Shown piece by piece: positions 47,494-52,816 of a stretch of 64,000 bases of DNA. How positions within the stretch are numbered: position 1 is the first letter of the stretch; each line of letters opens with the position of its first letter. The notes beneath the pieces are model-generated. The model did not search any database, was not told where the DNA came from, and saw only the letters and a list, made by a program, of their open reading frames with translations. The DNA lies in contig NZ_LT629781.1 in the NCBI RefSeq assembly GCF_900105685.1, forward strand, positions 3,646,611-3,710,610, written 5' to 3'. The position numbers and the translations under genes are program-made. Source of the stretch: Verrucomicrobium sp. GAS474. Its GTDB lineage: Bacteria > Verrucomicrobiota > Verrucomicrobiia > Methylacidiphilales > GAS474.

Positions 47494-48387
47494 ATGACAC
47501 CTCGGACTTGCGGCTTTTTCCCGTCCCGTTTGAGCCTCCTGGTCGGCATGGCGTGGATGCTCGGCCTCGGGATCTCCACGGCAGGAGCGCAGACGACCTT
47601 TTACTCCCTCGATTTCCAGGGCGGAACCACCGATTATACGGGCAATTTCCGGGCCTTGTATACCACCGCCCAGACCAACGCCCTGAACTATCCCGTCACG
47701 GCCAGTGGAGGTGCCGGCAACCTCTCCTTGAGGATCGCCACCAGCTATTCGGGCAACGGGAGCGTCGTCTTCGATACCACTCCCGCCGATTCGAGCGTCA
47801 AGAACACCTTTTCCACCAGCGCCGGGCTCGACGTCCACTTCCAGGTCTCTCTTGGAGGGACTGGGGCGAGCTCGGCAAACAGCCCCTCGATCGGCGTCCT
47901 CTTCATCAATCCGACCACGGAAACCTCGAGCCAAATGGCCTTGGTCAACTTCGATTCCGACACCTCGGACCGCATCCGCTTCTTCGGCGGCAATCCGAAC
48001 GGCTCCAACTCGGGTGCCGACGCCCAGGGAGGGACCACGACGACCGGAGACGGCGGTGCCAGCTACACCACGAACTCGATCACCAACGTCGATGTAAAGT
48101 ATGCGATCAGCGGCACCTCGGCCCTCCTGACGATGACCGTCGGCAGCCTGACGAGCACCTATACCTTCGCCTCCGGAACGTCCCTCTCCAACGTCGAAAT
48201 CGGGCTCCGACTCTACGATGCGGTCAACGGCACTGCCTACGCGACCATCGACAACTTCACCATCTCCTCGATCGCCGCCATTCCCGAACCGTCGACCACC
48301 GCCCTCATGATCCTCGGAGTCCTCCTCCTCGCGGGCCTCGCCTATCGCCGGAAACAGGGTTTCACTGCGGCCGCAGAGGTTCATTGA
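47494..48387 (+). CDS. PEP-CTERM sorting domain protein 1
   Basis: 297 residues. A signal peptide (LLVGMAWMLGLGISTAGAQ) is followed by a beta-rich Ser/Thr/Gly body (FYSLDFQGGTTDYTGNFRAL, DTTPADSSVKNTFSTSAGLDVHFQV) and a C-terminal sorting signal: IPEPSTTALMILGVLLLAGLAYRRKQG, i.e. PEP motif, helix and basic tail. PEP-CTERM proteins are processed by an exosortase and exported to the cell surface; no exosortase gene is in the window. Tandem paralogue of the next gene, about half identical by eye, sharing the leader and 3' end. Confidence 0.93.
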   Translation: MTPRTCGFFPSRLSLLVGMAWMLGLGISTAGAQTTFYSLDFQGGTTDYTGNFRALYTTAQTNALNYPVTASGGAGNLSLRIATSYSGNGSVVFDTTPADSSVKNTFSTSAGLDVHFQVSLGGTGASSANSPSIGVLFINPTTETSSQMALVNFDSDTSDRIRFFGGNPNGSNSGADAQGGTTTTGDGGASYTTNSITNVDVKYAISGTSALLTMTVGSLTSTYTFASGTSLSNVEIGLRLYDAVNGTAYATIDNFTISSIAAIPEPSTTALMILGVLLLAGLAYRRKQGFTAAAEVH

Positions 48388-48431
48388 TTTCTTCCGGCCC
48401 GACAGGAAATCGCAATTAATCAAAAGAGTTT

Positions 48432-48513
48432 TTTCGCAAAGACACAAGCGGAGTTCGGAAAGGTGTAAGCCAATTCGGTCGTGAGGAGGAGGTAACCGGC
48501 GCAGAGTGGTTCC
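48432..48513 (+). promoter_or_regulatory. Conserved leader of PEP-CTERM gene 2
   Basis: Second copy of the block at 47411-47493: TTCGCAAAGA, CACAAGCGGAGTTCGG, the identical 23-nt run at 48464-48486, then a purine-rich GAGGAGG (possible Shine-Dalgarno, though about 20 nt from the ATG), ACCGG and TGGTT just before the ATG. Confidence 0.55.
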
Positions 48514-49365
48514 ATGAAGATGGGAACTCGCCGCGCACTCCTCTCACGCTTTCTCTTCATCGCTCTCCTAGCCGCCGCCCCCCTTGCCGCCCAGGCGCAA
48601 AGCCTCGTCTCCCTCGATTTTCAGGGCGGAATCACCGATTTCACGAACAACTTCCGCAATCTATCCGGCACCGCCATTGCCAATTCTGTAACGGCCCAAG
48701 GTGCGTCCGGCAGCCTCGCCCTCACCCTCTCGAACAGCTACTCGGCCAACGGGGCGGTCGTCTATGACACGACCCCCGCCGACAGTACGGTCCAGAATAC
48801 CTTCTCGACCAGCGGCGGCCTCGACGTTCACTTCCAGGTCACCCTGAGCGGCACCGTCCCCTCCAGCCCGCCCGGCATCGGTGTTCTCTTCATCAACCCC
48901 ACCGGGGAAACCTCGAGCCTGCTGGCTTTGAGCAATTACGTGAGCGACACCTCGGATCGCATCCGCTTCTTCACCGGCAACCCGAGCGGCAGCAACTCGG
49001 GGGCCGATTTCGTGAAAACAGACGTCAGCGGGAATGGCGGGGTCAGCTACACCGCCAACACCACGACCGACGTCGACGTGAAGTACACCGTCAGCGGCAC
49101 CTCGGCCATCCTCACGATGACCATCGGGACCTTCACGAGCACCTACAACTTCGGCACCGGCACCGCGCTCAGCAATGTCGAGATCGGCCTCCGCCTCTTC
49201 GACCAATCCTCCGGCAACTCGGTAATGATCGACAACCTCACCGTCTCCTCGATCGCCGCCGTTCCCGAGCCGTCGACGTACGCCCTCATGATCCTCGGAG
49301 CCTTCCTCGCGGGCCTCGCCTATCGCCGGAAACAGGGTTTCACTGCGACCGCAGAGGTTCATTGA
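48514..49365 (+). CDS. PEP-CTERM sorting domain protein 2
   Basis: 283 residues, paralogous to gene 1: signal peptide (SRFLFIALLAAAPLAAQAQ), SLVSLDFQGGITDFTNNFRNL, VVYDTTPADSTVQNTFSTSG, IGVLFINPTGETSSLLALSNY, and C-terminus VPEPSTYALMILGAFLAGLAYRRKQG. The final 40 nt are nearly identical to gene 1. The repeated, Ser/Thr-rich beta pattern suggests an extracellular adhesin-like or lectin-like body, but no family is recognised for it. AraC gene 2 follows 51 bp later. Confidence 0.93.
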   Translation: MKMGTRRALLSRFLFIALLAAAPLAAQAQSLVSLDFQGGITDFTNNFRNLSGTAIANSVTAQGASGSLALTLSNSYSANGAVVYDTTPADSTVQNTFSTSGGLDVHFQVTLSGTVPSSPPGIGVLFINPTGETSSLLALSNYVSDTSDRIRFFTGNPSGSNSGADFVKTDVSGNGGVSYTANTTTDVDVKYTVSGTSAILTMTIGTFTSTYNFGTGTALSNVEIGLRLFDQSSGNSVMIDNLTVSSIAAVPEPSTYALMILGAFLAGLAYRRKQGFTATAEVH

Positions 49366-50533: not shown

Positions 50534-51379
50534 CTAGGGCGTCGCGGCCTTCGTCCCGCCGGCGCGGCTTTCCAGATATTCCGAAGGCGTGATGAAGCGG
50601 GCCCCCTTCGCCGTGAGGAAATCGACGATGGCGACGAAGTTCGCAAAACGGGCGTCGTCCCACTTCCCCGGATGGCCCTGCATCACGAAGCAATCGCGAC
50701 TCCCGACCAACTTCGCATAGGCCCCCTCGACCTTCGCCGGATTCGGGACGAAGGTCGGCTCCTCGATCGTCAGGTCGGTGTGATCGAGGATGAGGAGATG
50801 CGGCGTTGCCGAGGCCGTCTGGGGCTGCCCATAGAGGAAGATCTGGAGATCGGGATCCTCGGAAAGGGCCTTCAGCGTCGCCGCATCGGTCAGGTTGAAG
50901 GGCGGCCCGAAGGCGCGGAAGGTGATCCCCAGCTTGTCCTTGGCCAGCTGCTGCGAGCGGACGAGGTGATCCTTCTGCTGCTCGTAGGAAGGGCCCTTGA
51001 ACTCCCAGAATTGCTTCCCCGCCTCGTCTTTCCACGCCAGGTGGTCGTATCCGTGATTCCAGAACTCGACCAGGCCCGTCTGCTGGAATTCCTTGATCCA
51101 GGCATAATACGATTCCTTCCCCTCGCCCTCCAGGGAATTGCAGATGATCCCGATCGAGAGCTTCAACTGCCGCTCGACGGCGAAGTCCCGCAACTTCTGC
51201 CACCGGCCCAACTCGCCCTTGTATCCATTGAGGTCATCGAGCTTCAGGATGACCGAGAACGGCTTCTCCGCCTTGGCAGCCGGGGCTTCCTCCTGTGCGG
51301 AGAGAAACGGGGCCGTCAGAAAAGCGACGGCCAGCACGACCAAAAAGGGCAAAGAGAAAGGGCGCGGAAAAGCTTTCAC
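50534..51379 (-). CDS. Secreted polysaccharide deacetylase-like protein
   Basis: 281 residues with a signal peptide (FLVVLAVAFLTAPFLSAQ). It starts with VILKLDDLNGYKGEL, where the Asp-Asp resembles the first motif of NodB-fold deacetylases; later VEFWNHGYDHLAWKDE supplies the His of H-x-x-x-H (second motif) and RAFGPPFNLTDAATLKAL the third. It fits the DUF2334/polysaccharide deacetylase superfamily, perhaps acting on a surface glycan; substrate unknown. The end VAIVDFLTAKGARFITPSEYL matches the closing strand of this fold. Confidence 0.8.
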   Translation of the reverse strand: MKAFPRPFSLPFLVVLAVAFLTAPFLSAQEEAPAAKAEKPFSVILKLDDLNGYKGELGRWQKLRDFAVERQLKLSIGIICNSLEGEGKESYYAWIKEFQQTGLVEFWNHGYDHLAWKDEAGKQFWEFKGPSYEQQKDHLVRSQQLAKDKLGITFRAFGPPFNLTDAATLKALSEDPDLQIFLYGQPQTASATPHLLILDHTDLTIEEPTFVPNPAKVEGAYAKLVGSRDCFVMQGHPGKWDDARFANFVAIVDFLTAKGARFITPSEYLESRAGGTKAATP

Positions 51380-51518
51380 GGGTGGGGAAGGACGGAAGCG
51401 AGCCTACCTCGGACAACCACCTCGCGTGAAGCGCCTTGCGATTCTCAGTATAGAATGCCGACCGGCCCAAAAGGCTGAGCCTGTGGGTCCTCATTGAAGA
51501 AGGTCGCCCAAGCTGGAA

Positions 51519-51571
51519 TGATATGTAAAGAAAATGGCGTTTTCTTTACATATCGTGTGGGACATGTAAAA
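51519..51571 (+). promoter_or_regulatory. Palindromic operator and promoter of fic
   Basis: A perfect 15-bp inverted repeat GATATGTAAAGAAAA (51519-51533) and its complement (51539-51553), with a 5-bp spacer; a third ATGTAAA half-site lies at 51563-51569. A possible -35 TTTACA (51544-51549) sits in the right arm and a -10 TAAAAA (51566-51571) overlaps the third half-site, 16 bp apart. Consistent with repression by a dimeric regulator, possibly the Fic protein itself through its C-terminal winged helix. Confidence 0.7.
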
Positions 51572-51590
51572 AACCATTCCGATCCCCTTG

Positions 51591-52676
51591 ATGATGAAGT
51601 CATCTCTTCCTCTCCTCCCCTTGCCCCCATCAGTCCAACTGGAGAGTGCTCCCATCCTGAAGTGCTTAGTCCAGGCGCACCGTCGCCTTGCTGAACTGAA
51701 AGGGGCAGTGACGGCCATCCCGAACGAAGAGATCCTCATTGATACCCTCTCTCTCCGCGAAGCCAAGGACTCCTCCACGATTGAGAACATCATCACGACC
51801 GAGGACGAACTCTTTCAGGCGGACGCCGTCGGCGGCACATTCCAGACCCCCGCGGCGAAGGAGGTCCACAGCTACGCCGCCGCCCTCAAAGTCGGCTTCC
51901 GGCACGTCCGCAAAGAGGGTGTGATCCGGCTCAAGCACATCCTCGAAATCCAGGCGACCCTCGTCGAAAACCGGGCCGGCCTGAGGAAGCTTCCCGGGAC
52001 AGTTCTGAAGAACTCCAACACCGGGGCCGTCGTCTACGAGCCGCCGCAAGATTCAGCGGAGATCGAAAGGCTCATGGGCAACTTCGTCGAACACATGAAC
52101 CGGGATGAGGCGGGCGATCCGGATCCGCTGATCCGCATGGCGATCCTCCACTACCAATTCGAGAGCATCCACCCCTTCTACGACGGGAATGGGCGCACCG
52201 GGCGCATTCTGAACCTCCTCCACCTCGTGCAACACCGGCTCCTCGATCTCCCGGTTCTTTACCTCAGCAGCTACATCGTCCGGCACAAGGAGGCGTACTA
52301 CAGCGGCCTTCAGGCGATCCGCGAGAAGGAAGACTGGGAAGGGTGGATTCTCTTTATGCTTATGGCGATTGAAGCGACAGCTTTGGAGACGCTCATTACA
52401 GTGCAGCACATCAAAAATCTCATTGCCGAGACCAAGCTTCGCCTCCGCACGGAACTCCCCGGGATCTACAGTCAGGATTTGTTGAACAACCTTTTCCGGC
52501 ACCCCTACACGCGAATCGAGTTCGTTGCGCGGGACCTCCGCGTTGTGCGCCTCACGGCAACGAAGTATCTGGAAGCAATGGCGAAGGCCGGAATCGTCGA
52601 GAAGCTGAAAATCGGGCGAAACAGCTACTACGTCAACGTCCCACTGTTTCGGCTGCTGAGCGGCCCGGCAGCCTAG
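51591..52676 (+). CDS. fic: Fic-domain protein (class II, adenylyltransferase-like)
   Basis: A 361-residue protein with an intact FIC core HPFYDGNGRTGR (His194) that transfers AMP from ATP to target hydroxyls. The preceding N-terminal helix has SSTIEN (61-66), matching the (S/T)xxxE(G/N) inhibitory motif placed N-terminally, as in class II Fic proteins, so autoinhibition is expected. The C-terminus (residues about 290-361) looks like a winged helix (RLTATKYLEAMAKAGIVEKLKIG). Start at ATG 51591 or 51594. The region and promoter are somewhat AT-richer than neighbours and the gene lies beside tRNA-Ser. Confidence 0.92.
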   Translation: MMKSSLPLLPLPPSVQLESAPILKCLVQAHRRLAELKGAVTAIPNEEILIDTLSLREAKDSSTIENIITTEDELFQADAVGGTFQTPAAKEVHSYAAALKVGFRHVRKEGVIRLKHILEIQATLVENRAGLRKLPGTVLKNSNTGAVVYEPPQDSAEIERLMGNFVEHMNRDEAGDPDPLIRMAILHYQFESIHPFYDGNGRTGRILNLLHLVQHRLLDLPVLYLSSYIVRHKEAYYSGLQAIREKEDWEGWILFMLMAIEATALETLITVQHIKNLIAETKLRLRTELPGIYSQDLLNNLFRHPYTRIEFVARDLRVVRLTATKYLEAMAKAGIVEKLKIGRNSYYVNVPLFRLLSGPAA

Positions 52677-52727
52677 GGTTCGCCTCCGGCTTTTTTTGAG
52701 GGGGCTTTCCGTCTTGCAGCTCTGCTG

Positions 52728-52816
52728 CGGAGCCGGGGGGATTCGAACCCCCGTTAGGGTTTAACCCCTAAAACAGTTTAGCAAACTGCCGCTTTCAGCC
52801 ACTCAGCCACAGCTCC
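52728..52816 (-). tRNA. tRNA-Ser (anticodon GCU)
   Basis: Folds as a class II tRNA on the minus strand: acceptor GGAGCTG pairs with CGGCTCC (one T-G pair), discriminator G; D arm GGCTGAGTGG; anticodon stem GCAGT/ACTGT with loop TTGCTAA, anticodon GCT; long variable arm (TTTAGGGGTTAAACCCTAA) as expected for serine; T arm GGGGG-TTCGAAT-CCCCC. CCA is not encoded. Reads AGC/AGU. Confidence 0.95.

Follow-up and report, generated by a model that had tools for sequence, protein, structure and literature searches.

A SoFic-like gene and the palindrome preceding it

The window, meaning the whole 64,000-nucleotide stretch of Verrucomicrobium sp. GAS474 DNA analyzed here, harbors a gene for a Fic-domain protein that is preceded by a palindrome and followed by a tRNA gene. 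The features are as follows:

51520-51534, + strand: half-site 1, the left arm (GATATGTAAAGAAAA), from a perfect-arm comparison; architecture conserved in relatives
51540-51554, - strand: half-site 2, the right arm, facing half-site 1 over N5
51545-51550, + strand: putative -35 TTTACA inside half-site 2, by eye; absent from the consensus scan
51561-51573, + strand: half-site 3 (GACATGTAAAAAA), about 20 bp past half-site 2
51567-51572, + strand: putative -10 TAAAAA inside half-site 3, by eye; absent from the consensus scan
51594-52676, + strand: SoFic-like fic gene, 360 aa from ATG 51594 (ORF listing, Pfam, NCBIfam, homologues, PADLOC)
51771-51788, + strand: inhibitory motif SSTIEN of class II Fic proteins, residues 60-65 (alignment of 38 sequences)
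52170-52205, + strand: Fic motif HPFYDGNGRTGR, residues 193-204 (alignment of 38 sequences)
52473-52634, + strand: C-terminal winged helix-turn-helix, residues 294-347 (AlphaFold2 model, Pfam SoFic-like_C)
52548-52586, + strand: predicted recognition helix RLTATKYLEAMAK, residues 319-331 (AlphaFold2 model, covariation in relatives)
52727-52816, - strand: tRNA-Ser (gct), from a tRNA search

The two 15-nt arms of the palindrome are 100% complementary across a 5-nt spacer, and the core ATGT-AAAG-AAAA occupies 51523-51534 inside half-site 1. Half-site 3 is 85% identical to the first 13 bases of the arm, and the step from half-site 2 to half-site 3 resembles the outward spacing seen in relatives. 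A first-pass annotation had described both a perfect 15-bp palindrome over a 5-bp spacer and a third half-site. Both are real, and its coordinates agree with ours to within 1-2 bases. It had also suggested that the same site be sought across the genome: at up to three mismatches, the 29-bp core matches a single site in the whole 3.76-Mb genome. Within the window, the core likewise has a single match at that tolerance, and 0 of 100 shuffles contain one. The 12-bp half-site ATGTAAAGAAAA occurs genome-wide only as the two palindrome copies, while 12-mers fitting TMTTTWCATRTC occur at two further genomic places.

The palindrome sits in the intergenic gap between divergent genes, the neighbor (50534-51379, - strand) being polysaccharide-deacetylase-like, as named by eye. 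Because the gap is divergent, the palindrome is unlikely to be that neighbor's terminator, a candidate that we ruled out given its wrong place and AT-rich composition. The first-pass annotation had further proposed that the half-sites overlap the fic promoter. TTTACA and TAAAAA do lie where it placed them; by eye, they are 16 nt apart and agree with 9 of 12 consensus positions. A consensus scan of the region returned no promoter, and the pair breaks the scan's rule of a T at the last -10 position. We infer that the promoter is positioned over half-sites 2 and 3. Elsewhere in the window, two adjoining and very similar ORFs at 47494-49365 have PEP-CTERM-like C-termini (by eye) and are apparently a tandem duplication.

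The listed fic ORF opens at TTG 51588. Because a 65%-identical homologue aligns from residue 3, a start at ATG 51594 (or 51591) is more likely. The Pfam families Fic_N, Fic, and SoFic-like_C score 86.7, 67.1, and 78.8 bits (cut-offs 26.7, 24, and 27), and the PADLOC SoFic profile scores 368.5 bits (E 1.1e-110), with residues 7-356 aligning to profile positions 9-359 of 361. The NCBIfam SoFic equivalog NF046030 scores 360.3 bits, below its cut-off of 550, and because that cut-off is missed, we file the protein as SoFic-like and not as the NCBI equivalog. The whole genome contains one Fic_N match. Across the 38 aligned sequences, S60, S61, and E64 are invariant and N65 is present in at least 90%. 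Residues S60-N65 fit the class II N-terminal pattern (S/T)xxxE(G/N), in keeping with the N-terminal inhibitory SSTIEN that had been read from the sequence earlier. Ten of the 12 columns of the Fic motif are invariant, and H193-R204 fits HPFx(D/E)GNGRxxR.

An AlphaFold2 model built from the same 38 sequences (mean pLDDT 90.3) places C-terminal helices at residues 294-302, 308-315, and 319-331 and wing strands at 336-340 and 343-347. The model and the Pfam SoFic-like_C match bear out the winged helix that had been proposed. In relatives, the residue equivalent to L320, second in the predicted recognition helix, covaries with the half-site (see below). Among the structure matches listed, the best is Shewanella oneidensis SO_4266 (3eqx; Z 46.2, rmsd 1.9), 40% identical to the model across 353 residues, and no title among those listed names a DNA-bound SoFic. 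Downstream, 50 bp separate the fic stop at 52676 from tRNA-Ser at 52727, which leaves no room for a 3' antitoxin gene; upstream, the ORF listing covers ORFs of at least 60 aa. tRNA genes are typical insertion points, and fic, lying beside tRNA-Ser, may have arrived as mobile cargo.

Half-site arrays beside related fic genes

Upstream DNA was collected from 80 relatives in genome contigs, from 29 more loci of the window's phylum plus 40 regions, and from loci on plasmids (13), in E. coli (two), and in a phage record (one). Another 60 loci and 20 regions from two more groups were added later. Removal of redundancy reduced 124 loci to 86 at 80% identity and 183 loci to 149 at 85%.

Architecture like that of the window adjoins SoFic-like genes in several phyla and on plasmids. 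Specifically, inverted repeats scoring at least 9.5 are present in 30 of the 86 non-redundant upstream regions (13 of 86 at a score of at least 12). At 9.5, the controls yield 3 of 86 regions taken 400-520 bp upstream, 2 of 83 stretches within the gene, and 4 of 88 intergenic upstreams of neighboring genes (Fisher p 2e-7 versus fic upstreams). These upstream-versus-control counts, together with the uniqueness of the site in its genome and the 0 of 100 shuffles, rule out a chance palindrome. The window's own half-site, at up to one mismatch, has 26 matches upstream of 85 other fic genes, distributed over 15 of the 85 loci. Its density at this tolerance is 2.0/kb upstream versus 0.063/kb elsewhere in the same loci, a 32-fold excess that drops to 14-fold at two mismatches and 4.5-fold at three.

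Facing pairs at N5-N7 number 64 in 30,249 bp of upstream DNA, 0 in 160,999 bp inside genes, and 3 in 312,696 bp elsewhere, more than 200 bp from the gene. Such a pair lies within 200 bp upstream in 36 of 149 loci and within 200 bp downstream in 7 of 127. The repeat is commoner when fic has its own promoter region (54 of 125) than when another gene ends within 60 bp upstream (3 of 18; p 0.026). Examples include GACATGTAAAGAAA-N7-TTTCTTTACATGTC at L004, further repeats at L088, L090, and L091, and the plasmid loci L160 (Psychrobacter) and L171 (Hymenobacter). Two E. coli fic genes carry ATGTCGATAAAA-N5-TTTTTTAAACAT (L158) and ATGTCGATAAAA-N5-TTTTATAAACAT (L159), which reach the start codon. A strict facing pair occurs 5' in only 39 of 149 loci and 3' in 9, so many relatives either are without the site or have forms that the ATGT-NNNN-AAAA core misses.

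Other palindromes occupy a similar upstream position in other lineages: one of ACTTGATAG type in the Saccharibacteria (L070, L075, L076, L077) and one of TTTTACCCTTGT-N7-ACAAGGGTAAAA type in the Bacteroidota (L042, L061). It is as if each clade had an operator of its own. Among distant Fic relatives of less than 34% identity (L127, L147, L149, and others), 9 of 25 show inverted repeats upstream with scores of 9.5 or more. Regarding viruses, a protein scan of viral contigs revealed no relative, and 114 viral stretches contain an exact ATGT-N4-AAAA-N5-TTTT-N4-ACAT.

The geometry of the arrays was scanned in the 149 loci, and in 100 shuffles, with the core ATGT-NNNN-AAAA and one mismatch allowed. 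Facing pairs at exactly N5 number 32 (shuffles: mean 0.07, max 1), outward pairs at 22-25 number 29 (mean 0.41, max 3), and same-orientation pairs 40-42 bp apart number 48 (mean 0.39, max 3). From these facing, outward, and same-orientation spacings, it follows that successive half-sites stand about 20.5 bp apart and point in opposite directions by turns. A step of 20.5 bp corresponds, at 3.4 Å/bp, to about 70 Å, and the DNA-binding helices of the dimeric Fic protein CccR of Yersinia pseudotuberculosis are described as 70.2 Å apart (PMC9755527). This agreement is suggestive only, because the CccR boxes stand N26 apart.

Recognition-helix residue and variable bases

The variable bases of the half-site change with residue 2 of the predicted recognition helix, here called X. 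The code set contains 85 of the 149 rows, selected by a filter that requires the recognition helix to begin with R-X-TA..YL and the residue two before that R to be V or I. L175 was dropped as the same locus as L004, and the state of L004 (P, AAAG) was set by hand. Among the 17 rows with X=P, 14 have AAAG and 3 are unclassified, a label that includes ties throughout. The 46 rows with I, L, V, or M divide into 24 ATAR, 10 AAAG, 1 TARN, and 11 unclassified; the 10 rows with Q into 6 TARN and 4 unclassified; and the 12 rows with other residues into 2 TARN, 1 ATAR, and 9 unclassified. The choices of half-site class, score threshold, and X grouping postdate inspection of the first loci, and only L175 onward constitutes a fresh test. 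P differs from I/L/V/M in the first loci (p 7e-4) and again in loci fetched after the code was noted (p 0.008). For Q versus the rest, the first loci give p 1.5e-5, and the later set, with a single classified row, gives 0.07.

Kinship was controlled with a tree built from the Fic domain alone, the C-terminal domain being excluded. On this tree, P appears in several separate places, and well-supported branches force at least five changes. L165 (P, AAAG) nests with six Q proteins, four of them TARN and two unclassified. Motif change was simulated on the tree, blind to X, with 2000 runs at each rate. At all three rates, none of the runs attained the observed mutual information (0.529, 55 rows). 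By these simulations, the base-residue association exceeds what shared ancestry provides. An independent-pairs test found no discordant pairs; informative pairs were too few for significance.

A second tally is confined to strict facing pairs (39 loci 5' and 9 loci 3', out of 149). AAAG is present on at least one half-site in all 12 loci with P, ACCA or ACCC in all 4 with K, and TAAG/TAAA in both with Q; the single A locus has TCAA. With I/L/V/M, 18 of 29 are AT-type, 6 of 29 AAA-type (the window included), and 5 of 29 mixed or TAAG. The window protein is an exception to the code: it combines L320 with AAAG, while most L/I/V/M relatives have ATAG, and the other four members of its clade are all P with AAAG. 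The E. coli-type proteins (KRQTAS), excluded from the 85 rows by the filter, have Q yet carry CGAT half-sites. Because of these E. coli-type Q proteins, the code is local to one subfamily.

Sites 3' of fic were analyzed in the 120 of 149 loci with long enough flanks. Strict pairs precede fic in 37 of these loci (5') and follow it in 8 (3'), and no locus has both; the backgrounds from letter shuffles are 0 and 0.0017 per locus. The 3' sites mostly obey the code: AAAG at L173 (P); ATAG at L188 (M), L186 (L), and L167 (L); ATAC/ATAG at L195 (I); and ACC at L104 and L162 (K). L103 (M) is mixed, combining AAAG with ATAG. Four of the eight next genes were scanned. They encode a DEAD/ResIII helicase (L104), a type ISP restriction-modification protein (L188), an HsdS specificity subunit (L103), and a DUF4238 protein (L186), so that three of the four are of restriction or helicase types. 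At L167 and L195, the next gene seen points toward fic, and this convergence does not fit control of the next gene. Operon-embedded loci have 3' operators in 3 of 16 cases versus 5 of 104 for the others (p 0.07, not significant alone), and 5' sites are rarer in them (1 of 16 versus 36 of 104; p 0.016). That some Fic proteins may control the next gene is a lead, not an established conclusion.

Two further loci, L101 and L185, have looser arrays 3' of fic, found by eye and containing no strict pair. At L101, the next gene encodes a ResIII domain and the gene before fic a DNA methylase. At L185, TTAAC-type half-sites (by eye) lie between fic and a gyrase B/topoisomerase IV-like gene. Gyrase B and topoisomerase IV-like subunits are Fic targets elsewhere. 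Topoisomerase IV specifically is reported as one (PMC7479194).

A reverse search with the operator pattern, at up to three mismatches, across 387 genomes of the window's phylum found 11 genomes with 12 sites between them, compared with a single site (G054) for the pattern read backward as a control. Six of the 12 immediately precede SoFic-like genes. Of the others, three closely follow a fic gene or remnant on its 3' side (L373, L369, L372), and three lie away from fic (L374, and two in L377/L379). At L374, the pair at positions 1501-1529 is of ATGTTAAG type and almost perfect; a gene judged HipA-like by eye lies nearby, and no fic gene was found in that locus.

Probable self-repression by Fic and its alternatives

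In our judgment, the palindrome is very probably the operator of fic's own product, with a SoFic-like dimer on adjacent half-sites repressing fic. The notion is that the two C-terminal winged helices of a Fic dimer would take adjacent ATGT-NNNN-AAAA half-sites. Alternating half-sites about 20.5 bp, that is, two helical turns, apart would share one face of the DNA. Half-sites 1-3 overlap the presumed -35 and -10, and bound Fic would block RNA polymerase, with the toxin level kept low as the consequence. By extension, operator-bound Fic may be kept non-toxic, and loss of binding, during stress or phage attack, might both increase expression and free active enzyme. The first-pass annotation had proposed that the protein represses itself. 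There is now strong indirect evidence that the protein uses its C-terminal winged helix to bind the site and repress fic, because the site recurs beside relatives' genes, its geometry is fixed, its bases covary with the recognition helix, and it is absent from gene bodies. The site, its recurrence and spacing, the covariation, and the winged-helix model were computed here; binding, bridging of two half-sites by a dimer, and repression are the steps that we infer from them.

The general idea of a Fic-HTH autorepressor is not new. CccR is described as a class II Fic protein with a C-terminal HTH, a dimer, and a secreted T6SS effector that represses itself via inverted repeats near the -35 and -10 of its own promoter (PMC9755527). 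The reported operator is AGATAATCAT-N26-ATGATAATCT, with 10-bp boxes, and CccR is given as 29% identical to SO_4266 over 45% coverage (PMC9755527). CccR and the window Fic have in common the class II Fic domain with a C-terminal HTH or winged HTH (modeled for the window) and inverted repeats at the promoter of their own gene (the window promoter being the putative one above). The CccR boxes stand N26 apart, whereas half-sites of the window type lie about 20.5 bp apart, a spacing that departs from the N26 arrangement. By analogy, the window Fic would work like CccR, and we do not file it as a CccR-type member.

Closer in sequence are SoFic and EcSofic (PDB 3eqx, 3zcn), whose domain order is the same as that of the window protein. 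SoFic is described as an anti-phage system made of one gene, and its control as elusive (PMC12249575). EcSofic is reported to be a dimer whose C-terminal domain shows a twist when compared with the ATP-bound form, and toxicity requires that domain (PMC12249575). In a term search of that paper, winged, helix-turn-helix, and transcription did not occur, and none of the eight occurrences of DNA concerns DNA binding by Sofic (PMC12249575). Downstream of EcSofic lies AS1, a small antitoxin gene; in the window, the 50 bp between fic and the tRNA gene leave no space for one there. Our literature search, with most subscription journals outside its reach, found no report of a SoFic operator. In Phd-Doc and FicTA modules, a toxin module regulates its own promoter through palindromes, with the antitoxin binding DNA. 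There the antitoxin is separate, whereas in the window the toxin, the inhibitor helix, and the DNA-binding domain would be one chain. Regarding DNA binding by SoFic, the accessible text of a 2023 paper has it as not demonstrated at that date (PMC10628234). The same paper describes CbFic2 of Coxiella burnetii as a class II Fic that dimerizes via helix 1 and places its C-terminal wHTH on DNA, with AMPylation and deAMPylation altered by binding and the deAMPylating dimer favored (PMC10628234). As described there, random DNA was used, and the accessible text mentions no operator in the protein's own promoter (PMC10628234). Because of the CbFic2 and EcSofic papers, a link between AMPylation state and repression, which the first-pass annotation had envisioned, is plausible by analogy.

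Three other readings of the palindrome deserve weighing. Fic could bind it as an activator or two-way switch, or the DNA could serve mainly to hold the enzyme inactive, with repression secondary. We regard this as unlikely. CbFic2 is proposed to pass from AMPylation to deAMPylation on DNA (PMC10628234), EcSofic toxicity depends on the C-terminal domain (PMC12249575), and some relatives have their operator 3' of fic, L167 and L195 even beside a convergent gene; against these points, half-sites over the presumed -35 and -10 favor repression, and CccR is a repressor (PMC9755527). The second reading, which the first-pass annotation had itself raised, is that fic is under the control of some unrelated transcription factor of the host that recognizes the palindrome. 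Many regulators commonly target perfect palindromes. This site, however, is unique in its genome, recurs by fic in unrelated hosts and on plasmids, and changes with the Fic recognition helix, which disfavors an unrelated protein to the point of making it very improbable. A global regulator's site, specifically, is ruled out, as the genome has no second full site. Finally, that the palindrome works as RNA, a leader hairpin or terminator, is scarcely credible and we reject it: 51515-51600 does fold better than 200 shuffles, but its z of -3.3 is what any long palindrome gives, the sequence is AT-rich and lies in a divergent gap upstream of the presumed transcription start, the 20.5-bp phase with its outward and same-orientation pairs is consistent with DNA-bound protein and inconsistent with a hairpin, and the variable bases covary with a protein residue.

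What appears to be new, within the literature searched, is a Fic family of the defense type whose half-sites form alternating arrays and follow a recognition code. The predicted operators, the one-residue code in one subfamily, and the E. coli examples L158 and L159 make binding, autorepression, and a possible DNA-linked AMPylation switch directly testable. The 3' operators also raise the idea that some of these toxins control neighboring genes. We speculate, with more doubt than confidence, that SoFic-like AMPylases could be sequence-specific, DNA-bound regulators of defense loci. The operator would then be a brake, in effect a DNA antitoxin on which dimers are inactive or deAMPylating, and at some loci where fic lacks its own operator, a 3' site would let Fic control the next gene, for example, a restriction gene. 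If so, AMPylation and expression of the whole defense locus would be released together.
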